NCBI RefSeq assembly: GCF_900215325.1 | Contig: NZ_OCMS01000005.1 | Location: 62,001 to 126,000, forward strand | Direction of reading: 5' to 3' | From: Fibrobacter sp. UWB16 | GTDB taxonomy: Bacteria > Fibrobacterota > Fibrobacteria > Fibrobacterales > Fibrobacteraceae | DNA length: 64,000 nt | Part shown: one piece after another, positions 32,401 through 51,715 of the stretch | How the letters are laid out: every line of letters begins with the position of its first letter | Position numbering within the stretch: the first letter of the stretch is position 1 | The notes under the pieces: model-generated | What the model was told of the DNA's origin: nothing | Databases searched by the model: none | Seen by the model: only the letters and a program-made list of their open reading frames with translations | Program-made: the position numbers and the translations under genes

Positions 32401-33642
32401 ACAATCTCGCTTACTTTGAATGGTGGCGCTACAGGGAACGGTAGATGCCTTGTGACTTATATGCAATCTACGCCGCAAAGTGAACTTGAATTGACCTGCC
32501 CCTCGATTGTCTCGGTGAATGGCTATGATAAGACTTTTGAAATGACGCCGACGGTTACGGGGTGCGAAAATGGTGGCTGCTCGTGGAGTGTCTCTGGCGG
32601 GGCTTCTGTTTCTCCGGCAAGTAATTATACATCGGGAACCCTTACGGTAACGGAATCTTATGTGAGCAGCAGTAAGGAATACACGTTTACCTTAAGCCAT
32701 GAAGGTCTTGATAGCAAGACTTGCGATGTGACTGTTGAAAGGGCGTCTCAGTTTGAACTGGATTGTGAAATTGCCAAGCAGACGGATGTCGAGCCTGGAG
32801 AAACGATTACGATTCAGCCGCATTCCGTGACAGGGTGCAATTCGGATTGCTCGTACAGTGTCGAAATGCAGAATTCGACATCTGGCGCGGATTACATCAG
32901 CGTTGTGAATGGTACGGGATCCAATTATGATGGTGGCGCTATTTCGTTTAAGGGCGCTAGCTCTGGCGGCACAAAGCAATATCGTTTGACGGTGACGGAT
33001 GCCATGAATTCCTCGAAGTCATGCTTGTTCGAAGTCGGCTATGCAAATTCTGGATGCCGCTCGGTAGTGCGTAAAATGCCTTTCAGCAACAGTAATATTA
33101 GCATAAGTGATAGATTTGTTGCTGGTTGCAATGAAATTAAAACGGTTAAGCAATGTAGCAAGGCTCAAATCCAGTCTCAGGCATGTTCTTGCTCGGATGG
33201 CTTGTCGCATACGTTTACGATTAACGGAAAGACGCTTGATTGTGGCGTGTACTTCGATGATGTCATTCCGGCACGTTCTACTGTAACTTTGGATGTTCCT
33301 GAAAACTGCACGATTAATGGCAATATCTACCTTTCGGAATGTTATTATGACCCGAATTATGTAGGTGTTGGTACAAAGCTAACTGGGAACTTCCAAAGCT
33401 TTGAACCAGGTTCAAATAGTGTGTATGTGGCTGCTTTTGATAACGGAAATCGGTTGAACTGCTCTGTTTCTCAAACGGCATCATATGCAAGAACCGTGGC
33501 ATCGGTAAATGGTTGTAATATCACGATTAATGGAAACAATGATCGAAGCTATAGCAACTGTGAGCTTGAAGGCAATGCTGATTACACGCTCATTGTTAAG
33601 GATGATGCTCCGAGCGATTTGAAATGTGGTATTAGTTGGTAA
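26482..33642 (+). CDS. Giant PilX-like pseudopilin with multidomain adhesin-like ectodomain (copy B)
   Basis: 2,386 residues. The N-terminus KKGVSLITVLMFMLVATIAA matches copy A almost exactly and also lacks Glu at +5. Domain order parallels copy A: beta-helix-like repeats (VTGNFSFQG, LYVGGNFEN, IKVGGNFTVNG) at about 190-300; LPRIIYLPKDAKG and LSDYYN near 700; DEHCFYEDF near 1115 opening a lectin-like block; VKPWVGFSSF near 1455; CGEFYVGDI near 1582; and GFDPQHV. Tandem Cys-paired Ig-like repeats run from about 1807 to 2190 (TNCPEDGCDY, TGCENGGCSW, TGCNSDCSY). A distinct C-terminus with more cysteines ends KCGISW; it lacks the Gly-Ser linker of copy A. AGGGG precedes the start. The likely site is the tip of a surface pilus. 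Confidence 0.82.
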   Translation: MMCGKKGVSLITVLMFMLVATIAATATFKWLNSEGHSSAARMMRNEARQAAVAGITAARSWMTYHGNETGAIIRQFKGNGNKPIHLNNVLGNNIESANQNFDVWLVGAETESSPYVVKILSTGESRNGSKHSEVAIMKISGLYQVKVPEKKVSISFDRAFFGKTTGITGDDSLESAIINGDFGHQNNVPVISKPLLVTGNFSFQGTTNMGGDLYVGGNFENRGGLFFGNLEMDPHSNDYANCKTPDADTLVVYIGGSITTCEGNVIAVCGDLYVGGSVPVNCDIKVGGNFTVNGHMERGTGDISKGIGVKKNMVFTDNASWTKNELNYFNSTGGGTVSTFKVTNNLVLPPTMDGRKDENGGYAIDLTGKVMSYTTANTILREQGNNNNPKKYGVFVEGTTAEQAKARDRGNRRYFSFNAAKGIENRKVSRWSESDPLLRNIGDNYWNKLRKMYEYQGLIGSDGEVPVPILLNNEDTWTTKTQNAFCHLGTTFNLNNENIEKINKCYKDAGENELYNGFLILEWHSSEKVDPTIALDGKFVFYAPQKLANGHELILPSTTDNSVVLLYLKEGSGMLRGMEGFKQNFFIYSRGDIEEMKELKLEGCVIMDNGSTLRKYQGKNHLKYKAEVVQAVQAAGLIIGNEEFERLANKSSGATSTSGSSDVSDTVYVSVASQLKITMESEYKNNESYGNGDENVKPSILILPRIIYLPKDAKGRLSDYYNVVNLNGANERKNPNNVTCSPMGLPAVEKFKLYASVLPQDVYSCQYTSNNYEKMGFYVVVSGSSGDEPVVKFEKKSIEITKGGTVHVNLKASKAKPATVDVFQSKAPDEWVVTGGTLKKENTDGSKVYSMPFNGDKLAFDVTMKETASGTGSVYFQLVDPCENCVINADSNSTTVTAEGSFTLIRKDVREYCELAEHKDDESCKQGGDLYKKIQTPECGSLTKEGTQWVTADGVGCKMDELNNKWFCSIYITTPVVLKKADNFNDNFCEVVIPPNTSISSAKSETEYLYASVQRRTYNLHIEFKGAEESSDVIEVYNKAKDSDEYVKKYTCKNGEICDYPIYAGYYYQLRAIAKGSDRFSRFTSEPSVAAAQDSLLTILASSDYSVVAYFNDRDEHCFYEDFAPDANNKGFVAFCSESEDFPRCIDVCYTNPQPGMSCKISESMHWVGADAASNPDWVMVYDNRNATSNCQWDYSSCHCSSDDNACRLQCRKRVCTTTKSGERLVPSISNNYITANAAAETSSDVPNGSQSVILNTKDNGSNGTLTSIFSTEIIDVNTTVKNMANSGFIFRANEDASEYYSLSVYGKHAGGAYSPYVYVMLCYVNGQTASDDACVEKFLSTTDWDVSESGGFTNLSKIGLVMNIQGNIVSVNLQLNGNSANASSSGYSFDLNELFGSNLLLNDIHHGHAGFKLSNKDFKLYDISWSSTAYGDNACWDRPRLVCSFKTNYLGGIVPQDENVKPWVGFSSFTMNKYKKCHVKYYYNGCDNAVTSMPSPTNPLYNWEKLYQLYACAGGERLGMYWDKGTEVNDPYYRFKTEGKHGYYFEDPESSWGGFAMDAKVALECPPDVKVNVASSLLQTQSCGEFYVGDILMCSKNFDFLNSEEPVFCTDSCSFEVSGNEGVNVRKSKLLVGLNNPNSHNLRISFTDKNKIQSSFYTTAMDGTLSIDVNSISNEDGFDPQHVMSVNVKVVDGSSIEINQLKSSCPNSLSIGSCKVQYDNKHWEITADVKNADRCSVEKPLVSDAEAVGPAEGCPKTFRFKEEGLYSKEDVLSYEFTVKAYKGSGADEEMETLKCDPYKIIPIEVGCDIAESKKTVKQGAGVPSLNLSFTNCPEDGCDYTISFEGSVIARGNTQKEGDKTETYTFTDLNTPLNMLNAKEYSFTVVAGGKENRDCKFTVEETASKAKASCDFNPDTKMFTAKVDILQGLTWSGEIDLLDYNGNRYRTVQSFVDETSSEISVDLSAVPFSNGQNTISLTLNGGATGNGRCLVTYMQSTPQSELELTCPSIVSVNGYDKTFEMTPTVTGCENGGCSWSVSGGASVSPASNYTSGTLTVTESYVSSSKEYTFTLSHEGLDSKTCDVTVERASQFELDCEIAKQTDVEPGETITIQPHSVTGCNSDCSYSVEMQNSTSGADYISVVNGTGSNYDGGAISFKGASSGGTKQYRLTVTDAMNSSKSCLFEVGYANSGCRSVVRKMPFSNSNISISDRFVAGCNEIKTVKQCSKAQIQSQACSCSDGLSHTFTINGKTLDCGVYFDDVIPARSTVTLDVPENCTINGNIYLSECYYDPNYVGVGTKLTGNFQSFEPGSNSVYVAAFDNGNRLNCSVSQTASYARTVASVNGCNITINGNNDRSYSNCELEGNADYTLIVKDDAPSDLKCGISW

Positions 33643-39263: not shown

Positions 39264-41021
39264 CTAAAGAGAATTTCTGTATTTTCTCCAATCTCCGTAT
39301 TCCGAGATGTCTTTCGCCTTGCCCGCTCGGTACAGTTCGAGGACGGAACTGTCGGCTACGAATCCCGAAATAAATCTTCCGTCAATGGTTTTTACTTTCC
39401 CTATCGAGAGCGGTGCAGGAACTCGCTTGACGAACTTGCCAAAATCTTCTGCAGAAAGTCCGTAGATTTCAATGTAGAAGCTTTTGCCTTCGCCATTGGA
39501 TGCTGCAATAAGGGTTGGCTTTGGAATCGGGCCGTTCAAGGCGAGCATCTTGTACTCGGGTGCAGTTTCGGTGGCTTCGATGAAAACGGCGCGGGAAAGT
39601 TCTTCGTGAAGAGGACATCCTTTGAGGTGCGCTCCGCAAACGGCCAACGGAATTTTTGAGGCGAGATAACCTTCTACTTTCTTAGCGGCGTCGAGCAGTT
39701 TGTAGTCGTCGAATGCTTTGCCGACAAGGGTGACGCCAAATGGGAGACTTGGTGCGTTCCCGCTTTCGTTGTCGGCGTCTTCGGAGGGAATTGCCAATGC
39801 GGAATAATCCAGCAAATTCATGTAGTTGGTGTAGTACCCTAAATTCGAGTTCAGCTCGATAGGATTCTTTTCGACATCGGCGGTCTTGTAAATTGTCCCT
39901 GCGGTGGGCGTGAGCAAAAAGTCTACGGATGAAATAAGCTTGTCTGCAATTTTCTTGTAGGCTTGCAGCGAGTGGAACCCTTCGAAAACTTCAGAAGGGT
40001 GCGGGGTACGCTTGGGCGTGATAATTGATTTTGTGACCGGATGAATTTCGTCCGAGTGTTCTTCGATGAATTTCCCTACGGCGTTGTAGCGCTCGAATAC
40101 CCACGGGCCTTCGTAAAGGAGCTTCGCTGCCTTGAGGAATGGTTCGAATGGAATAATGACCTTGGTGCCGCCTGCATTTTCGAATGCTTGTACAGTCTTT
40201 TCGAAAGCTTTGCGGTAACCTTCGTTTCCAAAAAATTCCAATTTGTCCGGAACACCGAAAGTCCATTTTTCAGGGAGGCGTGCGCGATTGGCTTCGGCGT
40301 GAACCCAAGGTGCTTCGCGGGAATATGGGTCTTCGCTATCTTCGCCTTGTGCAATGTTCAATACTGTTTGAGCGTCTTTTGTGTCGAGTGCAAAAATGCT
40401 TACGCAATCAAGGCTTCGGCAGGCCGGAATGACTCCGCTTGTGCTGAGCAAGCCTCGAGTCGGCTTTACGCCAACCAGTTTGTTGAAGGCGGCGGGAACG
40501 CGCCCAGAGCCTGCGGTATCTGTACCGAGAGAAAAACTGCATAATCCGTAAGCGAGCGCTGCGGCAGAACCGCTGCTGCTTCCGCCAGAGATGTATTCGG
40601 GTGCGAACTTGTTCGGGATGGAACCGTAAGGACTGCGTACGCCGACAAGCCCTGTAGCGAACTGGTCCATGTTCGTTTTACCAAGCGGTATGGCGCCTGC
40701 TGCGATGAGGCGGTTTACGACGAACGAAGATTTTTGCGGCTTGTAAGCGTAAGCGGGGCAGGCTGAGGTGCTTTCTAGACCTTCGAAATCAATGTTGTCC
40801 TTGATGGCGAAAGGGATGCCGAATAAAGGCTTGTCCGCAGGAATGGTTTTGCAGTTTTCGAGCGGTTCCAAGTATTTTTCGAGAGATTCTCGAGAAAGTC
40901 GGCTGATCCAAATCTGCGATGGCGCTTTGTCCATTTCTTTAAGGATGTTCTCGATGACCGTGCGCGGAGTTGTTGTTCCGTTACGGTAAGCGTTTAGCAG
41001 AGTTGAAATTCTAAGTTCCAT
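39264..41021 (-). CDS. atzF: Allophanate hydrolase
   Basis: Hydrolyses allophanate, the product of urea carboxylation or carboxyguanidine deimination, finally giving ammonia and CO2. 585 residues, matching two-domain AtzF. The amidase-signature domain (about 1-440) contains the catalytic Lys in GIPFAIKDNI, the Ser cluster GGSSSGSAAALA and the nucleophile region GTDTAGSGRVPAAF. The C-terminal decarboxylase-type domain (about 465-585) includes EIYGLSAEDFGKFVKRVPAP and GKVKTIDGRFISGFV. AAGGAGG precedes the start, 11 bases after the ROK gene stop, so repressor and hydrolase form one operon divergent from the transport/carboxylase operon. Confidence 0.93.
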   Translation of the reverse strand: MELRISTLLNAYRNGTTTPRTVIENILKEMDKAPSQIWISRLSRESLEKYLEPLENCKTIPADKPLFGIPFAIKDNIDFEGLESTSACPAYAYKPQKSSFVVNRLIAAGAIPLGKTNMDQFATGLVGVRSPYGSIPNKFAPEYISGGSSSGSAAALAYGLCSFSLGTDTAGSGRVPAAFNKLVGVKPTRGLLSTSGVIPACRSLDCVSIFALDTKDAQTVLNIAQGEDSEDPYSREAPWVHAEANRARLPEKWTFGVPDKLEFFGNEGYRKAFEKTVQAFENAGGTKVIIPFEPFLKAAKLLYEGPWVFERYNAVGKFIEEHSDEIHPVTKSIITPKRTPHPSEVFEGFHSLQAYKKIADKLISSVDFLLTPTAGTIYKTADVEKNPIELNSNLGYYTNYMNLLDYSALAIPSEDADNESGNAPSLPFGVTLVGKAFDDYKLLDAAKKVEGYLASKIPLAVCGAHLKGCPLHEELSRAVFIEATETAPEYKMLALNGPIPKPTLIAASNGEGKSFYIEIYGLSAEDFGKFVKRVPAPLSIGKVKTIDGRFISGFVADSSVLELYRAGKAKDISEYGDWRKYRNSL

Positions 41022-41032
41022 AAAACCTCCTT

Positions 41033-42031
41033 TTAGGATTCCAGTAGGCGATCCATTGCAAGGCTGTAGAGTCCTGCGAAATATTCGTTTTCGGTATTGG
41101 GCTTGATGATGATTCGTGGCAACTGCAAACGATTCAAATGTTTCCGCAGATGTTGAAGGATGGCTTGTTCGCTTATTTCGTTGGCGAGTCCGCCGGTAAT
41201 GACAATCTGCGCGGGGTCCAAAAATACGGTGGCGGCGACAACCAGTTGGTTGACAATGGGAGAAGCGTATTCAATGTCGCTGAATGCGGCGTTTTGACTG
41301 TTCTTGTTGAAATTGAACGGGTAGTACGAAAGTTCTCCAGCCAAATTTGAAGTCCCTCGCAAAATTTTACCATCGACGATAAAGCCTCCGGCAGGCGTGT
41401 TTCCCTTGGGGAAGAACAGCAGGGCGACATTCTTCTCGTCGCTGTTTGCTTTGGAGTAGCCTAGCGCAATCGTGTTCATGTCGTTTTCTACGATGGTCGG
41501 AATTTTGACGGCCTCTTCGATTCTTTCGGCGAGGTTGATTCCGCGAAGTTCCTTGATATCGCAGAATTCAATTATTCCGTTGTTGACGCAACCTTGCACT
41601 CCGATGACGAGGACGCCTATGCCTGATTCCTTTTTCAAGATTTTTCGGATGTTTGCAATGATGACTTCTGCTGACAGATTCTTTTCCCTAAAGGCTCCGT
41701 TTTGCTTGATGTTCCCGGCGGTATCTTGAACGCGGTAACGCAAGAATTTTCCTTCGTGGTCGGCGTGGGCGAATAGGCAAAGGGTTTTCCCTTTTTCGTG
41801 GTTGTACTGGTAGGCCATTGCGGGGCGGCCACCGCTAGAAATTCTTTGTTCGTCTTCGGCGATTTCGCCGGATACTATTAATTCGTTTAAAATGGTGCCG
41901 CATGTGACAACGCTCAATCCAGTTTCTTGAGCGAGCTCAGCCTTGGTTGCGGAGCCCAAAGTAAATAGTGCCTTTTTTATGGCTTGCTTGTTATGTTGCT
42001 TTAAATCGGCTGTCGTGTTAGTTTGTTTCAT
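41033..42031 (-). CDS. ROK-family transcriptional regulator of the guanidine/urea locus
   Basis: 332 residues. The N-terminal winged helix-turn-helix (about 10-70) reads ATKAELAQETGLSVVTCGTI. The ROK domain has ISSGGRPAMAYQYN, the phosphate-loop-like GVLVIGVQGCVNNGI, and NLAGELSYYPFNF. The zinc motif CxCGxxGC normally found after NLAGE in sugar-responsive ROK proteins is absent, so it probably senses something other than a sugar. It sits between atzF, with which it is cotranscribed, and the divergent transporter operon. The ATG at 42031 has no strong ribosome-binding site, but upstream codons give no better N-terminus. Local repression of one or both operons is inferred from position. Confidence 0.82.
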   Translation of the reverse strand: MKQTNTTADLKQHNKQAIKKALFTLGSATKAELAQETGLSVVTCGTILNELIVSGEIAEDEQRISSGGRPAMAYQYNHEKGKTLCLFAHADHEGKFLRYRVQDTAGNIKQNGAFREKNLSAEVIIANIRKILKKESGIGVLVIGVQGCVNNGIIEFCDIKELRGINLAERIEEAVKIPTIVENDMNTIALGYSKANSDEKNVALLFFPKGNTPAGGFIVDGKILRGTSNLAGELSYYPFNFNKNSQNAAFSDIEYASPIVNQLVVAATVFLDPAQIVITGGLANEISEQAILQHLRKHLNRLQLPRIIIKPNTENEYFAGLYSLAMDRLLES

Positions 42032-42135
42032 GGTTAAAAATATAATGACGGTTTGGTACTTTTGTAAAGACATTAAAAAAGTTTTTTTGAAAAATTTTTT
42101 GAATAGGTTAAAAATTTGTTTATTTGCATAAAAAT

Positions 42136-42162
42136 GGGGTTTTACATTCTGTGAAATACCCC
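42136..42162. other. Imperfect hairpin in the ROK/ABC intergenic region
   Basis: GGGGT-TTTACA / TGTGAAA-TACCCC with small bulges around TTC. No T run follows. Candidate operator for the ROK regulator, or a leader structure. The spacer has no ykkC guanidine-riboswitch motif that I can see. Confidence 0.45.
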
Positions 42163-42270
42163 TATACTTTTTAAAAGTCTTTTACAAAGTGTGGTGCTAC
42201 AGAACTGTTACAAAAACCATAAGTTCCTGAAAAATGGCGATTTTGATGAAAAAACGGCAGTTTGAAAGTT

Positions 42271-42287
42271 TTGGCACACCGTTTGCT
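42271..42287 (+). promoter_or_regulatory. Sigma-54 (-24/-12) promoter of the guanidine/urea operon
   Basis: TTGGCACACCGTTTGCT matches the sigma-54 consensus YTGGCACGrNNNTTGCW at all positions except the two after CAC; the GG and GC elements are exactly 10 bases apart. It predicts transcription starting near 42298, leaving a 29-base leader with GTGAGGA before the ATG at 42327. Confidence 0.75.
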
Positions 42288-42326
42288 ATTGGTGTTGTGA
42301 AAAGAAATCCAAAAAGTGAGGAAAAC

Positions 42327-43307
42327 ATGAATTTGAAAAAGATTCTTCTGACATGCATTGCCGTTGCTGCCGCTTCTGTATATGCTCAAAAGCCTGTGCT
42401 GAAAATCGCCTACAGTGATTGGCCGGGTTGGACGGCTTGGGAAATTGCCGACAAGAAAGGTTTCTTTAAAAAGCATGATGCCAATGTTAAACTGGAATGG
42501 TTTGATTATGGCCCGTCTATGGACGCGTTTGCTGCTAAGCAGGTCGATGCCGTTGGTGTGGCTAATGGCGATGCGATGATGATGAACGCTACGGGCGCCC
42601 GTAACTCGATTATCTTGATTAACGATTACAGTAATGGTAACGACAAGATTATTGGTGCTCCGGGAATCAACTCTGTTAAGGATCTCAAGGGCAAAAAAGT
42701 CGGTGTCGAAATTGGGTGCCTTTCTCATGCGCTTTTGATTAATGCGTTGACGAAAAATGGACTCAAGGAATCTGATATTACTTTAGTCAACATGCCGACG
42801 CATCAAGCCGTGCAGACTCTTGAAAGTGGCGAAGTTTCCGCTGTTGTTGCCTGGGTTCCGCATTCTGTAAATGCTCTCGAAGTCGTTAAAGGATCTAAAG
42901 AGATTTATACCAGCGCAAATGAACCCGGAATCATCTACGATGTCCTCGCAGTCTCTCAGGAATCGCTGATGAAAAACAAGGCTGAATGGCAGAAGGTTGT
43001 TGCCGCTTGGTACGATGTCATTGACTTCTTGAACGACCCGAAAAATAAGGATGAAGCGGTCAAGATCCTTGCGGCCCGAGTAGGTATTTCTGAAAAGAAA
43101 TATGCCACATTTATGGGCGGAACTCGATTCTTAACGGCAGAAGAAGCGTCCGCACGATTCAAGAAGGGTAGTGGCTACAGCTCCATTTATGGCTCCAGCA
43201 AAAATGTCGACGCCTTCTTTGTCAAGAACAAGGTCTACGACAAAAGCGTGAATGTCGACCGCTATATCATCCCTTCGTTTACGGAAACCTTCCTCAAGAC
43301 GAAATAA
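42327..43307 (+). CDS. ABC transporter substrate-binding protein (NMT1/TauA type), guanidine/urea-linked
   Basis: 326 residues from the ATG at 42327 (ribosome-binding site GTGAGGA). The signal peptide runs to about residue 21 (VAAASVYAQ). The mature part has the NMT1/SsuA/TauA pattern: LKIAYSDWPGWTAWEIADKK near the N-terminus, GKKVGVEIGCLSHALL, and YDVLAVSQESL. SBPs of this subfamily with a DWPGW motif are those found beside urea-carboxylase/guanidine genes. Captures the substrate in the periplasm for the permease and ATPase downstream. First gene of the operon controlled by the sigma-54 promoter. Confidence 0.88.
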   Translation: MNLKKILLTCIAVAAASVYAQKPVLKIAYSDWPGWTAWEIADKKGFFKKHDANVKLEWFDYGPSMDAFAAKQVDAVGVANGDAMMMNATGARNSIILINDYSNGNDKIIGAPGINSVKDLKGKKVGVEIGCLSHALLINALTKNGLKESDITLVNMPTHQAVQTLESGEVSAVVAWVPHSVNALEVVKGSKEIYTSANEPGIIYDVLAVSQESLMKNKAEWQKVVAAWYDVIDFLNDPKNKDEAVKILAARVGISEKKYATFMGGTRFLTAEEASARFKKGSGYSSIYGSSKNVDAFFVKNKVYDKSVNVDRYIIPSFTETFLKTK

Positions 43308-43331
43308 CGAACCTTTAAAAGTGGAATAATC

Positions 43332-44396
43332 ATGGTAAACCCGATTGGAATTCAAAAGCATGTTGGGAAAAAGTGGACGACTGTGCTGACTGTGCTCTCG
43401 TTCATCATTCCCCTTGCCATCTGGAGCGTGGTGAGTTACGTCCCCTTTGTATACCACCCGCTCGTCAAGGTCGTCGATGCCGGCGGAAGCATGTTTTGCC
43501 AACCGGGTGACGAAATTGAACGCAGTAACTTTGAAGAAGAGAACCGGAATCTCCTTGAGGCTAATGAAAGGCCCATGACGGGAATCCGCGTGAACCCCGC
43601 TTACCTTCCGGCACCGCACAAGGTCGCAAAAGCACTTATCACGGCTTTTATGACCGAGCCGAAGCGCGATGGTGATGTCTGGTTTTACGAAAGTATTCTG
43701 CATTCAATCAAGATTGTGTTCCTTGCGTTTTTGCTTTCGAGCTTGATTGGCGTACCTCTAGGTGTTGCGTGTGGCGCTGTCCCGTTCTTTGAAAAGCTGA
43801 CAGGTCCGTTTATCGAATTTTTCCGGTATTTCCCGGCGCCTGTGTTTGGAGCTTTGGCGGTTGCCATCCTCGGCATCAATGATGCTCCTAAGATTGCGAT
43901 TATCATCATCGGTACATTCTTTCAGCAAGTTCCGATGCTGTGCGCCACGACACGTCGCGTAGATTCGACTCTCATCGAAGCGGCCCGTACTTTGGGAACA
44001 TCGCCGATGCGTATTATGTTCAAGGTTGTATTGCCCGATATCGCTCCGAAGATGTACAAGGATATGCGCATTCTTTTGGGTTGGGCTTGGACTTACCTCA
44101 TTGTCGCAGAAGTGGTGGGAACAAGTTCTGGCATTACCTGGTTTATCAATCAGCAGGCGAAGTACCGTAACTTTGACAATGTCTATGCCGCCATCATTAT
44201 CTTGGGCGTCATTGGTCTTGGTTGCGATATGATCCTCAACTTCCTCGGCCGAGATTTCTTTGCCTGGGAAGGTGGCCGTGTGGGTGTCAGCTCCAAGATC
44301 AAGAGAGAAATTCTTGCTCCAAAGGATAATGTTTTCACGTTCTGCCTCACACCTGAAGAAAAGGCGCTCAAGGAGAAGTATCATGGAAGGCCGTAA
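43332..44396 (+). CDS. ABC transporter permease (TauC/SsuC type), guanidine/urea-linked
   Basis: 354 residues. One N-terminal helix is followed by a periplasmic segment of about 70 residues, unusually long for the family, and then the core of five or six helices. The coupling (EAA) loop is [40 protein letters not shown] is typical of nitrate/taurine-class permeases. A cytoplasmic tail of about 45 residues overlaps the ATPase gene by 14 bases, indicating coupled translation. Confidence 0.88.
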
Positions 44397-45231
44397 GGAT
44401 TGTTTCGAAGATTACATTTTGGAAGCCTGCCATATTGTCAAGGATTTCGAAAAGACTTCTGGAAAAGGGATGCATCGTGTTTTGGATGATATTTCTTTTG
44501 GCGTGCGTCGTCGCGAGTTCCTTTCGATCATTGGCCCTTCTGGTTGTGGAAAGTCAACGCTTATCCGCATTGCGGCAGGGCTCGAAACAGCAACTCGTGG
44601 AGAGTTCAGGCTTGATGGAAAGATTGTTCGTGGTACTGGTGCCGAAAGAGGAATGGTCTTTCAGAAGTATTCGCTTTTCCCGTGGCTTTCCGTAAAGAAG
44701 AATGTCATGTTCGGGCTGGAATCTACAGGGCACGATAGCGATGATGCCGAAGAGATTGCTGCACAGTGGCTTGAAATTGTTGGACTTGAAAAGTATGGCG
44801 AATATTTCCCGAAGCAACTTTCTGGCGGTATGCAGCAGCGAGTTGCCATTGCAAGAGCTTTGGCCCCGCAGCCGCGCGTTCTCTTGATGGACGAACCGTT
44901 CGGAGCGCTTGATGCACAGACGAGAGCGCAGATGCAAAAGTATCTGCTTGAAGTTTGGAAGAATATCGATATCACCATCATTTTCGTGACGCACGATCTT
45001 GATGAAGCCGTATTCCTTTCGGACCGCATTTTGACTTTGCAAGCTAATCCCGGAAAGGTCAAGGAATTGGTCGAAGTCAACATTCCTCGCCCGAGAAACA
45101 AGGAAACCCTTACTTTGCCTGAGTTCGTCGAAACACGCAAATACATCGAAGAACTCATTCGCCCGCCCAAGGTAAACGAAATCGCTGAAGAAGAATTCAA
45201 CATCGTGAACATGGTCGGGAAACAACTTTAA
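44383..45231 (+). CDS. ABC transporter ATP-binding protein (TauB/SsuB type), guanidine/urea-linked
   Basis: 282 residues from the ATG at 44383. Walker A is GPSGCGKST, the Q-loop is FQKYSLFPW, the signature is [17 protein letters not shown], and Walker B is [14 protein letters not shown]. The H-loop is [10 protein letters not shown]. It powers the preceding permease. The chosen start overlaps the permease stop by 14 bases and has AAGGAG upstream; the longer upstream open frame is shadow sequence. The first DUF1989 gene starts 15 bases downstream. Confidence 0.92.
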
Positions 45232-45246
45232 AAAACAGGAGCTAAT

Positions 45247-45963
45247 ATGTCTGAATCTAAAGTCCTTTGCAAACAAGTGATTGCCGGTGGCTGGAACTAC
45301 TCTCGAATCGTCAAGTGCGGCCAGAAAATCCGACTCACTGACATTGAAGGTGGTGCAAATGCCTCTTTGATGTGCTATAACGCTCACAATTTTACGGAAC
45401 GCTTTAACTTGGGCGATACCCTGAAAATCCAGCACATTTGCAGAATTGCAAAGAACTGCTGCCTTTATGGCGACATGGGCCGTATCTTGCTGAGCGTTGT
45501 CGAAGATACTGTGGGCTGGCACGATCCGCTTTGCGGCTGTACGCATGCCTCGCTGATCAAGGAACGCTTTGGCGAAAAGGATTATCAGAGCGCCCACAAC
45601 GATTTTTACCGCAATGGTTACGACTCTTTGCTTGTTGAAATTGGCAAGCACGGCATGACCAAGAGAGACTTTACGGAACTCGTCAACTTTTTCAGCAAGG
45701 TCGTGGTGACTTCTGACGGAAAAATGACTTTTGTAGAGAATAACTCTAAGCCGGGTGACTATGTGGAACTGCGTGCCGAGATGGATACTTTGATCGTTAT
45801 CGATACGGGTATGCATCCGCTGAATCCGAGCAAGGAATACTTGCGTAAGCCTGTGAAGGTTGAACTTATCACTTGCGATATCGCCGGTGCCGAAGATCCT
45901 TGCTTTACCTGGTGCCCGGAAAACGGTCGCGGCTTTATCAACACGGCAAACTACAACTTGTAA
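45247..45963 (+). CDS. DUF1989 urea carboxylase-associated protein 1 (carboxyguanidine deiminase subunit-like)
   Basis: 238 residues. DUF1989 proteins encoded beside such carboxylases include the two subunits of carboxyguanidine deiminase, which convert carboxyguanidine to allophanate. Shared family segments are KIRLTDIEGGANASLMCYN, RFNLGDTLKIQ, GDYVELRAEMDTLIVIDTGM and PLNPSKEY. Its metal-site loop (DTVGWHDPLCGC) is shorter and different from the DTCGxHDTLGSxCS of the next two genes, so it probably represents the second subunit type. RBS CAGGAG. Function by family and context. Confidence 0.85.
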   Translation: MSESKVLCKQVIAGGWNYSRIVKCGQKIRLTDIEGGANASLMCYNAHNFTERFNLGDTLKIQHICRIAKNCCLYGDMGRILLSVVEDTVGWHDPLCGCTHASLIKERFGEKDYQSAHNDFYRNGYDSLLVEIGKHGMTKRDFTELVNFFSKVVVTSDGKMTFVENNSKPGDYVELRAEMDTLIVIDTGMHPLNPSKEYLRKPVKVELITCDIAGAEDPCFTWCPENGRGFINTANYNL

Positions 45964-45973
45964 GAGGTCTATC

Positions 45974-46630
45974 ATGTTTACGAAGTATTTGGAAAGTACG
46001 CTCAAGGAAGAAGACGCTTGTTATGTTGAAGATGTGGCTGCCGGAAAGGGGTGGTTGCATTTGATTAAGAAAGGTCAGATTTTCCGCATTTTGGACCTTA
46101 AAGGGAACCAGGCTGTTGATACGCTGTTCATCAATGCGAACGACCCGTCGGAACGCTACAGTGTTCAGCAGACGGTGCAAAGACAAGCGAACTGCTTGGT
46201 CGGTGTTGGCACGAAGCTTTATTCCAACGATGATAACGCTATGCTTACGGTTGTTGCGGATACTTGTGGCGACCACGATACGCTTGGGAGTGCCTGCTCT
46301 TGCGAAAGTAATACTTGCCGTTATTCGCTCGACAAGCGTTATATGCATGCCTGCCGTGAATCGTTTTTGAAGGTGTTGCTCGAAACACCGAATCTGGATA
46401 AGCGCGATCAGGTGAACAACTTGAACTTTTTCATGTATGTTCCGTTTGACGAAAAGGGAAACCTCAACTTTGCTGATGGTATTTCTTCGCCGGGAAAGTA
46501 TGTGGAAATGCGTGCCGAAATGGATGTGCTCGCGGTTGTGAGCAACTGCCCGCAGCTGAACAACCCCTGCAACGCTTACGATCCGACGCCGGTAAGGATG
46601 ATTATTTGGGATTCAAAGGAGTCCGTATGA
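45974..46630 (+). CDS. DUF1989 urea carboxylase-associated protein 2 (carboxyguanidine deiminase subunit-like)
   Basis: 218 residues from the ATG at 45974 (AGAGG upstream). It has GQIFRILDLKGNQAVDTLFI, NANDPSERYS, the metal-loop motif ADTCGDHDTLGSACS, KRDQVNNLNFFMYV and SPGKYVEMRAEMDVLAVVSN. It is close in sequence to the following gene, whose start codon overlaps its stop (ATGA). Probable partner of the 45247 product in deiminating a carboxylated guanidino compound. Confidence 0.87.
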   Translation: MFTKYLESTLKEEDACYVEDVAAGKGWLHLIKKGQIFRILDLKGNQAVDTLFINANDPSERYSVQQTVQRQANCLVGVGTKLYSNDDNAMLTVVADTCGDHDTLGSACSCESNTCRYSLDKRYMHACRESFLKVLLETPNLDKRDQVNNLNFFMYVPFDEKGNLNFADGISSPGKYVEMRAEMDVLAVVSNCPQLNNPCNAYDPTPVRMIIWDSKESV

Positions 46631-47268
46631 ATTCGAAGCTTCTTGAAAGCCCGCGTTGCGTAGAAGATGCGGTATCGGATGTGACCGTCCTTGCCGGGGA
46701 CGGTTACATGCTGCCCCTCAAAAAGGGACAGATCCTCCGCTTGGTTGACGTAGAAGGCAATCAGTCTGGCGATGTGCAGATTTATAACGCGAATGACCCG
46801 ACAGAACGCTACAATGCGAACAACACCATTACGGCTCAGGCGAATACGATGATTGAGCTTGGTACGGTTATCCGTAGCAACTGCGGAAACGCTATGCTTA
46901 CAGTGATTGCGGATACTTGCGGAGAACACGATACGCTTGGAAGCGGATGCTCTGCGGAAGGTAATGTTGTGCGTTATACGAATAAGACTCGTTATATGCA
47001 CAGCTGTCGTGATACTTTTGTGCGTACGCTTGAAAACTATGGCTTGAGCAAGCGCGATCAGACTTGCAACTTGAACTTTTTCACGAAGGTCATCTTGGAT
47101 GACAAGGGACGCCTTGAATTTGCCGATGGTATTTCGGGCCCCGGAAAATACATTGAACTTCGCGCCGATATGGATGTTCTGTTCTTGCTTTCGGATTGCT
47201 CGCAGTTGAACAATCCTTGTAACGATTACAATCCGACTCCAATTCGACTTTTGGTTTTTGACAAATAA
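46627..47268 (+). CDS. DUF1989 urea carboxylase-associated protein, third copy
   Basis: 213 residues from the ATG at 46627, overlapping the previous stop by 4 bases, with AAGGAG upstream. It parallels its neighbour throughout: GQILRLVDVEGNQSGDVQIY, NANDPTERYN, ADTCGEHDTLGSGCS, KRDQTCNLNFFTKV, GPGKYIELRADMDVLF. A tandem duplication followed by divergence is the simplest origin. Known guanidine loci usually have two DUF1989 genes, so the third may widen substrate range or form an alternative complex. Confidence 0.87.
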   Translation: MNSKLLESPRCVEDAVSDVTVLAGDGYMLPLKKGQILRLVDVEGNQSGDVQIYNANDPTERYNANNTITAQANTMIELGTVIRSNCGNAMLTVIADTCGEHDTLGSGCSAEGNVVRYTNKTRYMHSCRDTFVRTLENYGLSKRDQTCNLNFFTKVILDDKGRLEFADGISGPGKYIELRADMDVLFLLSDCSQLNNPCNDYNPTPIRLLVFDK

Positions 47269-47282
47269 TTTGGGATACCGCT

Positions 47283-48113
47283 ATGGACAACTACGTTTAT
47301 CGAAACTTCACTAGGGAATCGCTTGGTAAAGCCTACGACAACACCAGTGCTGTTAAGAATAGTTCTGAAATTTTGGAAGGCTTCAATGCTCGTAGCGCAG
47401 AAATTTCAAAGCAGTTCCAGGATACCATGAATTTGCATTATGGCATGGATTCTAGGGAACGTATCGATTACTTTAGTTGTGGTAAGAAAGATGCTCCGCT
47501 TTTTATCTTTATTCATGGCGGGTATTGGCAAATGCGCTGCAAGGATACTTTCCGCTTTTTAGCGAAGGGGCCTATTGCTCAAGGATTCGATGTGGCTAGT
47601 GTCGGATACCCGCTTGCTCCGAGCGCAAGTATTGGTGAGATTGTTGCCAGTATCCGTAATGCCCTCTATTTTTTGCGCTGTCATAGTGATGTCCTTGGCT
47701 TTGACAATTCTCGTATTTATGTGTCGGGCTGGTCGGCTGGGGCTCATCTTGCCGTAAGCGTACTTGATGAACCCGGCGTATGCGGGGCGCTTGCCATCAG
47801 CGGTATTTATGACTTGAAACCTATTTCGCAATGCTTTTTGAACGATAAACTTCAGCTTACCGAGAATGAGATTCTCTTGTACAGTCCGCTCCGTAGGCCG
47901 TTTGTCAAAAAGCCGATTGCCGTAGTTGTTGGTGCAAATGAACTTCCGGAACTTCGTAGGCAAAGTGCCGAATTTGCGATGCACCGCGCCGAAGAAGATA
48001 TTCCTGGTTCGTTCAATTTGCTTTCGAACCATAACCATTTTACGATCCTCGAGGAACTTGAAAATCCCGAAGGATCCCTGACGCAACTTCTTGTACAATT
48101 GATTAAATACTAA
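47283..48113 (+). CDS. Alpha/beta hydrolase, kynurenine-formamidase-like
   Basis: 276 residues. The oxyanion-hole motif FIHGGYWQ matches the HGGxW signature of arylformamidases and related esterases. The nucleophile elbow is VSGWSAGAHLA (GxSxG form GWSAG). The catalytic Asp/His region lies near VVVGANELPE and SNHNHFTILEEL. It lies between the DUF1989 genes and the carboxylase, with short spacings, so it is part of the operon. It is not a standard member of guanidine or urea carboxylase clusters. It may hydrolyse an amide or formamide-type intermediate or a substituted substrate; the exact reaction is unknown. Confidence 0.8.
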   Translation: MDNYVYRNFTRESLGKAYDNTSAVKNSSEILEGFNARSAEISKQFQDTMNLHYGMDSRERIDYFSCGKKDAPLFIFIHGGYWQMRCKDTFRFLAKGPIAQGFDVASVGYPLAPSASIGEIVASIRNALYFLRCHSDVLGFDNSRIYVSGWSAGAHLAVSVLDEPGVCGALAISGIYDLKPISQCFLNDKLQLTENEILLYSPLRRPFVKKPIAVVVGANELPELRRQSAEFAMHRAEEDIPGSFNLLSNHNHFTILEELENPEGSLTQLLVQLIKY

Positions 48114-48124
48114 AGGAGATAGCC

Positions 48125-51100
48125 ATGTTCAACAAAGTGCTTGTAGCAAACCGTGGCGAAATCGCTTGTCGCATTATTCGTACCCTGAAAGAGATGGGAG
48201 TAAAATCTGTTGCCGTTTATTCTGATCCGGATGAAACCGCAGCTCATGTATTGATGGCTGATGAAGCTGTTCGTATTGGCCCTGCTCCTGCCAAGGACAG
48301 TTACCTCAATGTCCCGGCCATTTTGGAAGCCATTAAGTCGACTGGTGCCGAAGCGGTCCACCCTGGTTACGGTTTCTTGAGCGAAAACGCAGATTTTGCA
48401 AAGACTCTAGAAGATAATGGAATTGCTTTTATCGGGCCGACTCCGAAGCACCTCATTGAATTTGGCCTGAAACACCGTAGCAAGGAACTTGCACAGGAAT
48501 TTGATGTTCCGCTTGTTCCCGGTTCAGGTCTTTTGGAAAGCTTGGATGATGCTATTGCGCATTCCAAGGAAATCGGCTATCCGGTAATGCTCAAGAGTAC
48601 CGCAGGCGGTGGTGGTATTGGCATGAGCATTTGCCACAGCGAAAAGGAACTCGTTGAAAGCTTTGACCGCATCAAGAGACTGAGTGAAAACAACTTCAAG
48701 AATGCGGGCCTCTTTGTCGAAAAGTATGTAGAACGTGGTCGTCATGTCGAAGTACAGGTCTTTGGCGATGGCGAAGGGAATGCTGTTGTGCTTGGTGAAC
48801 GTGATTGCTCTGTGCAACGCCGTAACCAGAAGGTCATTGAAGAAACGCCTGCGCCTTGCTTGCCCGAAAAGACTCGCGAAGCGCTGCATGAGGCTGCTTT
48901 GCGACTTGCGCAGGGTGTTGCTTACCGTTCTGCCGGTACGGTCGAATTTATATACGACGCACCGAGCGACCGATTCTATTTCCTCGAAGTCAATACGCGT
49001 TTGCAAGTTGAACACGGTGTCACCGAAACGGTTTATGATGTTGATTTGGTGCGCTGGATGATTGAACTTGCGGCTGGAAATCGTCCCTTTGAAATTGGCG
49101 CAAAGTTTGTGCCGCATGGGCATGCCATGGAATTCCGCGTTTACGCCGAAGATCCGGGAAAGAATTTCCGCCCGAGCAGTGGTCTTTTGACGGAAGTAAA
49201 CTTCCCGGAAGGCATCCGCGTTGATACATGGGTTTCTCGTGGCACGGAGGTCAGCGCATTTTACGATCCGCTTTTGGCAAAGGTCATTGTCGCGGGCAGT
49301 GACCGTGAAGATAATATCGAAAAGGCAAAGAAGGCTCTCGCCGAAGTCAAACTTTATGGCTTTGAAACGAACATCAAGCTTTTGCGCGATGTGCTTGAAA
49401 TGCCGGATTTTGTATCGGGAAAGGTTTCGACTTGGATCTTGAACGATTACAAATATCGTGACAGGATTTTTGAAGTTCTCGCTCCGGGCTTGCAGACGAC
49501 AATTCAGGATTATCCGGGTCGCTTAAAGTATTGGGATGTGGGCATTCCTCCTAGCGGTCCTATGGATAATTACAGCTTTAGGCTTGCGAACAAGATTGTC
49601 GGTAATGCCGAAAATGCGGCGGGAATCGAAATGACTCATTCGGGATGTACGCTTGCGTTCCATACGGATGCCGTGATTGCATTTACGGGTGGTGATTTCC
49701 CGGCGACTGTAAACAATATGCCGTGCCTGAAGAATACGCCTGTCGAAGTTCACGATGGGGATGTTCTCAAGTTCGGAGTTTCTAAGGCTGGACAACGCTG
49801 CTATTTGGCGATTCGCGGTGGTATTGATGTTCCTGATTATTTAGGTAGTAAGTCGACATTTACACTGGGCGGCTTTGGTGGCCACGGTGGACGTGCTTTG
49901 ACTGCAGGAGATATCCTCCACATTGGAAACGATGCTTCTGGTGAAACGGTTATTCCGGCGGCAACGGCGCTTCCGTCGATTGGGACCGAATGGGAAATTG
50001 GTGTGATGTATGGCCCGCATGGCGCTCCGGATTACTTGACTGCCGAAGACATTCAAGAATTCTTTGCAGCAACGTGGGAAGTGCATTACAACTCTTCTAG
50101 AACGGGTATTCGCTTGATCGGTCCGCAGCCCAAGTGGGCAAGACCCGATGGTGGCGAAGCGGGACTCCATCCCTCGAATTTGCACGATAATGCGTATGCC
50201 GTAGGAACTGTGGACTTTACGGGTGATATGCCGATTATCTTGGGCGTTGATGGCCCGAGCCTTGGTGGTTTTGCTTGCCCGGTGACGATTGTTTCTGCAG
50301 AACTATGGAAAATGGGACAGTTGCGCAGTGGCGACAAGGTTCGCTTTATTCCGCTTTCTGTAGAAGATGCTGAAAAGATTCGAATTGCACGCGAAGAAAT
50401 GCTTGCTGCTCCAGATAAGGTATCGAAACCGGTTCCGGCGCTTGTCTCCGCTCCAGTAACGTCTCCAATTATTTCGGAATACAACACTGATTCTGAAATG
50501 GAACATATTGTTGTTCGTGCCGACGGCGATGATAACGTGCTTGTCGAATTTGGCCCGGCGATTATCGATTTGCGTCTCCGCTTTACGGCTCACGCATGGA
50601 TGCTCGCTGTTAAGGAACGTTTTGCGGATGTCCTCATTGATGTTACTCCGGGTATTCGCTCTATACAAATTCACTACGATATCAAAAAGATTCGTCAGAA
50701 GGATGTTTTGGAACGCCTCTGGGATTTGGCAGAACACCTGAGAAAGAACAAGCTGACGAAGGTCCCGACAAGAACCATTTATCTCCCGCTTTCGTGGGAT
50801 GACCCGCAGACTCGTGTTGCCATCGAAAAGTATGTGACGACGGTTAGACCGGGCGCTCCTTGGTGCTGCCCCAACAATATTGAATTCATTCGCCGAGTCA
50901 ATGGCCTTGATTCCATTGATGATGTCAAGCGGATTGTGTTTGATGCGGACTATCTCGTGATGGGTCTTGGGGATGTTTACCTTGGTGCTCCTGTGGCAAC
51001 TCCGCTCGATCCGAGGCATCGTCTGGTTACGACCAAGTACAACCCGGCTCGTACATGGACGCCTGAAAATGCGGTGGGCATTGGTGGCGCTTACATGTGC

Positions 51101-51715
51101 GTTTATGGAATGGAAGGTCCGGGCGGTTATCAATTTGTCGGCCGTACGGTGCAAATGTGGAACCGCTTTAAAAAGACGAGTGATTTCCCGTTGCCGTATC
51201 TGTTGCGGTTCTTCGACCAGATTCGCTATTATGAAGTGAATGCGGATACGCTTTTGCAAATGCGAAAGGACTTTATCGCAGGCAAATTCCATGTCACTGT
51301 AGAGAACAGTTCCTTCGATATCGAGGAATACGAAAAGTTCTTGAAGGACAATGCGACATCTATTTCTGCATTCGAAGAAAAGCGAACCAAGGCTTTCGAA
51401 GAAGAAAAGGAACGCTGGATTGCAAATGGCCAGTTCACATTTGAAAGTCACAGCGCAGAGTCTGCTCCTGAAGCCGAAATTACGCTAGCCGAAGGAGAAG
51501 ATGGCGTTTACAGCCCTGTTGCTGGCTCTCTTTGGAAGCTGATTGTCGCAAAGCCGGGAACATCGGTAAAGGAAGGTGATACTCTCGCCATCATTGAAAG
51601 TATGAAGACCGAAATTCCTGTGATTGCAACATGCGGAGGCATTGTGTCGCAGATTTTTGTGAAGGAATCCTCTGAAGTTAGAGCTGGGCAGTGCCTAGCA
51701 TCCGTGAAATCATAA
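48125..51715 (+). CDS. Biotin-dependent urea/guanidine carboxylase
   Basis: 1,196 residues, the full length of bacterial urea-carboxylase-type enzymes. The biotin carboxylase (about 1-450) has KVLVANRGEIACRIIRT, MLKSTAGGGGIGMS (ATP-grasp loop) and EVNTRLQVEHGVTE. A carboxyltransferase related to KipA/KipI follows: LQTTIQDYPGRLKYWDVGIP, GPMDNYSFRLAN and GGIDVPDYLGS, and after about 785 an AHS1-like part with VEFGPAIIDLRLRF. A C-terminal biotin carrier carries ESMKTEI (Lys1161 biotinylated). Uses ATP and bicarbonate. The DUF1989 genes make guanidine the more likely substrate than urea, since many such enzymes are guanidine carboxylases; not proven here. RBS AAAGGAGA. Confidence 0.92.
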   Translation: MFNKVLVANRGEIACRIIRTLKEMGVKSVAVYSDPDETAAHVLMADEAVRIGPAPAKDSYLNVPAILEAIKSTGAEAVHPGYGFLSENADFAKTLEDNGIAFIGPTPKHLIEFGLKHRSKELAQEFDVPLVPGSGLLESLDDAIAHSKEIGYPVMLKSTAGGGGIGMSICHSEKELVESFDRIKRLSENNFKNAGLFVEKYVERGRHVEVQVFGDGEGNAVVLGERDCSVQRRNQKVIEETPAPCLPEKTREALHEAALRLAQGVAYRSAGTVEFIYDAPSDRFYFLEVNTRLQVEHGVTETVYDVDLVRWMIELAAGNRPFEIGAKFVPHGHAMEFRVYAEDPGKNFRPSSGLLTEVNFPEGIRVDTWVSRGTEVSAFYDPLLAKVIVAGSDREDNIEKAKKALAEVKLYGFETNIKLLRDVLEMPDFVSGKVSTWILNDYKYRDRIFEVLAPGLQTTIQDYPGRLKYWDVGIPPSGPMDNYSFRLANKIVGNAENAAGIEMTHSGCTLAFHTDAVIAFTGGDFPATVNNMPCLKNTPVEVHDGDVLKFGVSKAGQRCYLAIRGGIDVPDYLGSKSTFTLGGFGGHGGRALTAGDILHIGNDASGETVIPAATALPSIGTEWEIGVMYGPHGAPDYLTAEDIQEFFAATWEVHYNSSRTGIRLIGPQPKWARPDGGEAGLHPSNLHDNAYAVGTVDFTGDMPIILGVDGPSLGGFACPVTIVSAELWKMGQLRSGDKVRFIPLSVEDAEKIRIAREEMLAAPDKVSKPVPALVSAPVTSPIISEYNTDSEMEHIVVRADGDDNVLVEFGPAIIDLRLRFTAHAWMLAVKERFADVLIDVTPGIRSIQIHYDIKKIRQKDVLERLWDLAEHLRKNKLTKVPTRTIYLPLSWDDPQTRVAIEKYVTTVRPGAPWCCPNNIEFIRRVNGLDSIDDVKRIVFDADYLVMGLGDVYLGAPVATPLDPRHRLVTTKYNPARTWTPENAVGIGGAYMCVYGMEGPGGYQFVGRTVQMWNRFKKTSDFPLPYLLRFFDQIRYYEVNADTLLQMRKDFIAGKFHVTVENSSFDIEEYEKFLKDNATSISAFEEKRTKAFEEEKERWIANGQFTFESHSAESAPEAEITLAEGEDGVYSPVAGSLWKLIVAKPGTSVKEGDTLAIIESMKTEIPVIATCGGIVSQIFVKESSEVRAGQCLASVKS

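Follow-up and report, generated by a model that had tools for sequence, protein, structure and literature searches.

Why would a guanidine carboxylase operon carry, between its deiminase and carboxylase genes, a third DUF1989 gene and an alpha/beta serine hydrolase gene? The question is raised by positions 39264-51715 of the 64,000-nucleotide stretch of Fibrobacter sp. UWB16 analysed here (hereafter the window, in which all unprefixed coordinates are counted), which encode a complete guanidine-carboxylase pathway in a genome of 3.56 Mb. The guanidine carboxylase operon itself is already known; a literature search that did not extend to most subscription-only papers, among them the first report of CgdAB, returned no description of the Fibrobacteraceae variant with two extra enzymes. 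Judged from gene content and order in related genomes, the locus is a real, conserved and lineage-specific variant of the operon. Our preferred reading, to which we assign a probability of roughly 0.5, is that of a nitrogen-scavenging guanidine operon that has been widened by the third DUF1989 protein (called CgdC here) and the hydrolase, and that is controlled by sigma-54 and a ROK-family protein. The locus is laid out as follows.

39264 to 41021, minus strand: allophanate hydrolase (AtzF) with Amidase and AH_C domains (TIGR02713, 664.6 bits, cut-off 511), assigned to the final step, in which allophanate is converted into ammonia and CO2.
41033 to 42073, minus strand: ROK-family protein with a winged-helix-like N terminus (PF00480, 48.2 bits), a candidate local regulator.
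42166 to 42190, strand unassigned: palindrome found in 12 of 12 loci, a candidate ROK operator or enhancer site.
42271 to 42287, plus strand: sigma-54-type -24/-12 promoter element, TTGGCAC-N4-TTTGCT, conserved in 12 of 12 loci.
42327 to 43307 (start approximate), plus strand: substrate-binding protein of an ATP-binding cassette (ABC) transporter, NMT1/SsuA type (TIGR01728, 157 bits, below the cut-off of 163.5; TIGR03427, 147.8 bits, below the cut-off of 333.9).
43332 to 44396, plus strand: ABC transporter permease (PF00528).
44383 to 45231, plus strand: ABC transporter ATPase (PF00005).
45247 to 45963, plus strand: CgdA-type DUF1989 subunit (UAAP1) without the predicted metal ligands (TIGR03425, 298.6 bits, cut-off 205.95).
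45974 to 46630, plus strand: CgdB-type DUF1989 subunit (UAAP2) with the predicted metal ligands kept (TIGR03424, 305.5 bits, cut-off 284.7).
46627 to 47268, plus strand: third DUF1989 gene (CgdC), a diverged CgdB duplicate (TIGR03424, 261.7 bits, below the cut-off of 284.7).
47283 to 48113, plus strand: alpha/beta serine hydrolase with HGGYW and GWSAG motifs (BD-FAE and Abhydrolase_3 domains).
48125 to 51715, plus strand: biotin-dependent guanidine carboxylase with D697 and D950 (TIGR02712, 1799.1 bits, cut-off 1303.85).

Gene directions diverge from an intergenic region at about 42100-42330, with the ROK and AtzF genes on the minus strand and the genes from the transporter through the carboxylase on the plus strand. 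The CgdB and CgdC genes overlap by 4 bases, the start codon of one overlapping the stop codon of the other, and the remaining gaps between the first DUF1989 gene and the carboxylase gene measure 10 to 14 bases; this spacing suggests a single operon. All the genes named in an earlier note on this DNA lie where it had placed them, including three DUF1989 genes, two of them close paralogues (the second and third proteins are 55% identical, the first and third 30%), and the hydrolase with its HGGYW motif inside the operon. These three are the only DUF1989 genes in the genome.

The core of the locus is supported as a guanidine-assimilation pathway by signature residues and family matches, as the earlier note had proposed. 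The published mark of guanidine carboxylases is an Asp at each of two sites, K. lactis 1330 and K. lactis 1584 (PMC11410670), and alignment to the K. lactis chain places D697 and D950 at these two positions. The first specificity site is Asp in all 13 Fibrobacteraceae loci described below; among the 20 carboxylase sequences that cover it, Asn occurs in a single class-level locus (L039). The CgdA-type, CgdB-type and AtzF proteins each score above the cut-off of their NCBIfam model, and the genome lacks a urease. As a separate observation, the exceptional carboxylase (L039:2471-6082) adjoins an AtzF gene, no DUF1989 gene was found in its locus, and it is likely to be a urea carboxylase proper from within this phylum.

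To place the two extra genes, 167 Fibrobacterota genomes and 398 pseudomonadotan genomes were surveyed. A carboxylase above the TIGR02712 cut-off is present in 20 of the 167, and a 21st locus (L058) has its carboxylase split by a contig end. Thirteen of these loci belong to Fibrobacteraceae, seven of them to the genus of the window and six to another genus of the family. Every one of the 13 has the order CgdA, CgdB, third DUF1989, hydrolase, carboxylase, with the third DUF1989 gene frameshifted in L043. Consistently, a profile search found three TIGR03424 matches in exactly the same 13 of the 167 genomes, and the full-length hydrolase is confined to them; elsewhere in the phylum there are weak partial matches of 30-35% identity in five other genomes. 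Six class-level loci, from the class but outside the family, have the transporter, CgdA, CgdB and carboxylase genes in a row, plus AtzF, and contain neither extra gene nor the ROK gene (0/6). L039 and L054, two further class-level loci, do not bear on the extra genes; the latter is cut off just before its carboxylase, and a search of its genome gave no hydrolase and a single partial DUF1989 match (E up to 1e-20). In the pseudomonadotan set, the CgdB model finds a match at E up to 1e-40 in 42 of the 398 genomes, and no genome carries more than one CgdB-type gene. The neighbourhoods of 40 of these 42 (all but G278 and G556) were inspected; CgdA, CgdB and carboxylase occur together in 39, and none of these 39 loci contains a third DUF1989 gene, this hydrolase or the ROK gene. 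Left out of the 39 is L111 (G501:C1, 951877-952461), a lone CgdB-like DUF1989 gene (257 bits) with no carboxylase nearby. The absence of the extra genes from related loci, which the earlier note had regarded as a mark against a modified pathway, is thus found outside the family and not within it.

By comparison of these sequences, Fibrobacteraceae show a fixed gene set with a shared promoter motif. A sequencing artefact or local oddity was rejected as an explanation on the strength of the extra genes being present in 13 of 13 related loci. The operon is patchy within the genus (7 of the 80 genomes listed), and the flanks of the window, compared with those of the 12 other loci, are common to L046 only; the operon has therefore been moved or rearranged. 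The hydrolase is 93% identical to a copy in a Fibrobacter succinogenes metagenome-assembled genome (L034). L046 has this operon too, with equal identities, and together with the common flanks this makes the organism a close relative of that assembled genome.

The relationship of CgdC to the known subunits was examined in a DUF1989 tree built without L043, whose third gene is broken, and with every third pseudomonadotan row plus L111. CgdC forms the sister clade of Fibrobacteraceae CgdB (support 100/99), with a stem of 0.59 changes per column compared with 0.26 for CgdB and short branches thereafter. Because it forms a sister clade and scores below the TIGR03424 cut-off, it is not called CgdB here. 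Across 45 canonical CgdB proteins 61 alignment columns are nearly invariant, of which 57 are kept in Fibrobacteraceae CgdB and 47 in CgdC (L043 and L111 were set aside for this comparison). In the related trimethylamine N-oxide (TMAO) demethylase, C263, C279 and C343 are reported as zinc ligands, and H276 and D198 are linked to the metal centre via mutagenesis or modelling (PMC12560246). Alignment to this enzyme gives C108, C127, C191, H125 and D49 as the counterparts in CgdC. All five predicted ligands are fixed in CgdC (12 of 12 sequences) and in CgdB, and the five positions are replaced or variable in CgdA. The structure model of CgdC is poor, with a mean predicted local distance difference test (pLDDT) score of 51.9, and the metal site was read by alignment alone. 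Fixed or nearly fixed changes in CgdC include positions 47, 107, 190 and 192, at or near the predicted ligands, and the ratio of nonsynonymous to synonymous substitution rates (dN/dS) is 0.02-0.04 between the window and L047, L049 and L052. The tree and alignment thus show a CgdB gene duplication in Fibrobacteraceae with an intact predicted metal site. The kept ligands, the changes close to them and the strong constraint are better explained by a second catalytic partner than by a gene copy in decay, and CgdC is probably a second, catalytic B-type subunit.

Three residues of the hydrolase are invariant in the six aligned sequences and likely constitute its catalytic triad: Ser151, His252 and an acidic one at 220 or 223. 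Its predicted fold (mean pLDDT 78.5) is closest to Lipase 1 of Pseudomonas chlororaphis (9n8r; Z 33.1, 39% identity), followed by an uncharacterised Silicibacter esterase (Z 29.0) and by kynurenine formamidase (4e11/4e15; Z 25.8, 23% identity). The earlier note had called it formamidase-like. This is loosely right, since the HGGxW motif of kynurenine formamidase (here HGGYW) and its alpha/beta fold (Z 25.8 to 4e15) are both present, but the formamidase ranks third, with 9n8r and 2pbl nearer to the hydrolase. The Fibrobacteraceae hydrolases form one clade (support 100/100), and dN/dS is about 0.12 between the window and L047 and L049. In the pseudomonadotan set, 40 of the 398 genomes encode relatives that are 31-48% identical to it. 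Among the best 20 of 45 pseudomonadotan places, four adjoin a transporter of the same kind, one of which (L114) also lies beside a full AtzF gene, and three further places have a neighbouring amidase-like gene with 31-32% identity to part of AtzF.

Two loci with relatives of the hydrolase deserve description in their own right. In Dankookia rubra (L035:6933-13022) a transporter, a hydrolase of the same kind, AtzF and AtzH occur together with no carboxylase, possibly as a separate nitrogen pathway. The pseudomonadotan locus L114:424-6587 contains AtzF, the transporter, a polysaccharide-deacetylase-like protein (25.2 bits) and the hydrolase; the stretch of L116 that matches the position of the deacetylase-like protein has no Pfam match, and the remaining neighbours of the closest relatives are in this way mixed too. 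The AtzF neighbours in L035 and L114 suggest some independent, not fixed, link between the hydrolase subfamily and the allophanate pathway.

A third addition concerns regulation. The ROK gene is divergent to the operon in all 12 Fibrobacteraceae loci whose contig extends that far. Its product, whose true start is perhaps an internal ATG near 42031, combines a ROK domain with a winged-helix-like N terminus, as is expected of a ROK repressor, and matches the NagC and Mlc models from residue 22-24 on, with scores far below their cut-offs. The cysteine-rich zinc motif that is a usual feature of ROK repressors is absent from all ten ROK sequences readable in full, in agreement with the earlier note. 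What that note had missed is the sigma-54-type promoter element and the palindrome between the ROK and transporter genes. The upstream alignment covers 12 of the 13 loci (L042 is without the transporter end), and in all 12 an element fitting the sigma-54 consensus lies 44-58 bp before the substrate-binding protein gene. The pattern matches once in the window against 0.05 matches expected; it was written after the alignment had been seen, so that conservation and not the match count is the evidence for the element. An RpoN gene is present in the genome. The palindrome lies 103-105 bp upstream of the promoter element in 11 of 12 loci; allowing at most one mismatch, it occurs at a single place in the genome, but the reversed pattern, used as a control, likewise gives one hit on each strand. 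From its position and conservation, it may be a ROK operator or an enhancer site. The strict sigma-54-type element is absent from the six class-level loci, five of which have a similar string, GGTA-N5-ATTGC. Control by a guanidine riboswitch was rejected, the Rfam searches of the window, the genome and other loci being empty: no family matched in the window at gathering score, relaxing the threshold to E up to 5 revealed no guanidine riboswitch around the operon, Guanidine-I had no match in the genome, and no riboswitch matched in eight further loci, six of them class-level loci with intact runs. The combination of sigma-54 and a ROK protein for a nitrogen-source operon is, to our knowledge, unusual.

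These features can be assembled into a pathway. The transporter would import guanidine, the carboxylase would convert it with ATP and bicarbonate into carboxyguanidine, the CgdA/CgdB deiminase would yield allophanate, and AtzF would release ammonia and CO2. CgdC would most likely join the metal-free CgdA as a second deiminase, or enter one complex as a third subunit, acting on a substituted carboxyguanidine. The hydrolase, on chemical grounds, would most likely strip an acyl-type group off a masked guanidine in an oxygen-free reaction and thereby feed the carboxylase. Expression would depend on sigma-54, with the ROK protein, bound at the palindrome, as the gate in place of a guanidine riboswitch. 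Fibrobacter are strict anaerobes and should therefore be unable to use the oxygenase route known from Vreelandella. We infer the pairing and substrate of CgdC, the substrate of the hydrolase and the ligand of the ROK protein, and likewise a widening of the pathway to masked or substituted guanidines without oxygen. We also put forward, tentatively, a two-branch system in which a single metal-free scaffold, CgdA, has two metal-binding partners, one (CgdB) handling carboxyguanidine and the other (CgdC) a substituted form of it, and a dedicated hydrolase unmasks guanidine derivatives in an anaerobe.

Several observations weigh against the preferred reading. The sequence names no substrate for the extra enzymes; the earlier note's modified pathway for a substituted guanidine or amide-containing precursor is upheld as to the modification, with the extra genes kept family-wide, while its substrate goes beyond anything in the sequence. 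The 13 loci are related and hence do not count as 13 independent tests. In a quick carboxylase tree (8 of the 13 Fibrobacteraceae loci and every third pseudomonadotan locus) the carboxylase stem is likewise 0.59, and a long stem is thus not special to the deiminase; faster change in CgdA, considered as a sign of a new partner, was rejected because the carboxylase stem is about equally long. The hydrolase evolves faster than the neighbouring genes, which is compatible with a loosely fixed role. The survey of its orthologues' neighbourhoods suggested by the earlier note places it in the operon in 13 of 13 Fibrobacteraceae loci, but its relatives elsewhere occur in many unrelated contexts, mixed on eight plasmids, and no relative in the 398 pseudomonadotan genomes has a CgdB gene nearby. 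Furthermore, the metal-ligand assignment rests on homology, the sigma-54 assignment on agreement with a consensus, and CgdC could be a structural subunit.

The last point belongs to a rival explanation, plain guanidine assimilation with no new substrate. In that case CgdC would be a third, structural or regulatory subunit of one CgdABC complex, and the hydrolase would be an esterase with a housekeeping or detoxifying role, brought along with the operon. We lean away from this but regard it as a serious contender: with 57 of 61 canonical columns kept in Fibrobacteraceae CgdB, the normal reaction seems intact, and the production of CgdC next to CgdB from overlapping start and stop codons is what would be expected of a subunit. 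A structural subunit, however, has no need of the predicted metal ligands, every one of which is retained in CgdC and which CgdA has lost, and the full-length hydrolase never occurs without the pathway in the 167 genomes. That the hydrolase acts within the pathway, on a carboxylated or carbamoyl (allophanate-like) intermediate and not on an incoming precursor, appears unlikely. Its relatives do adjoin AtzF in L035, without a carboxylase, and in L114, yet a full AtzF occurs in just one of the best 20 pseudomonadotan hydrolase neighbourhoods, and the canonical loci (6 class-level and 39 pseudomonadotan) run without the hydrolase. Highly improbable, finally, is a locus that serves urea and not guanidine. 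The NCBIfam name of the carboxylase is urea carboxylase and the genome has no urease, but urea was rejected as the main substrate with both guanidine-type aspartates in place, and deiminase genes, unneeded for urea breakdown, are present.

Elsewhere in the window are two genes for very long proteins, at 15799-23379 (2526 aa), with a weak PilX-like N terminus, and at 26482-33642 (2386 aa), with no Pfam match.

The natural origin of guanidine and its derivatives is described as an open question (PMC12186494). The operon, conserved in gut bacteria that degrade fibre and equipped with two additional enzymes and a switch of its own, supplies defined genes for assays. Should the additional enzymes act on a substituted guanidine, this would identify a natural substrate as well as a route by which guanidine is released from it without oxygen; the two-branch system, if true, would indicate that conjugated guanidines have a natural source in the gut.

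Among known systems, the locus most resembles the guanidine carboxylase pathway of Pseudomonas syringae and Vreelandella boliviensis, with which it shares the enzymes, signature aspartates and gene neighbours (PMC11410670, PMC12186494, PMC12508155). Unlike that pathway, the Fibrobacter locus adds the third DUF1989 protein, the alpha/beta hydrolase and the ROK protein, and has a sigma-54-type promoter, with no guanidine riboswitch found by Rfam. A parallel is provided by MgdH/MgdL, the methylguanidine-demethylating extension of the V. boliviensis operon, which is reported to have been shown to widen the substrate range (PMC12508155). In both cases two extra genes have joined a guanidine carboxylase operon; the families differ by annotation, MgdH/MgdL being an oxygen-dependent dioxygenase and a lyase, whereas the Fibrobacter pair consists of a serine hydrolase plus the duplicate of a deiminase subunit. 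For the hydrolase, Lipase 1 (PA23, 9n8r) and kynurenine formamidase offer the nearest folds, from which function does not follow. We know of neither from a guanidine operon. The TMAO demethylase Tdm differs from CgdA, CgdB and CgdC in that its units are fused, together with a GcvT domain, into one protein that catalyses another reaction, but it likewise pairs a metal-free DUF1989-like unit with a zinc-bearing DUF1989 domain (PMC12560246), whose three Cys, Asp and His align with those of CgdB and CgdC.

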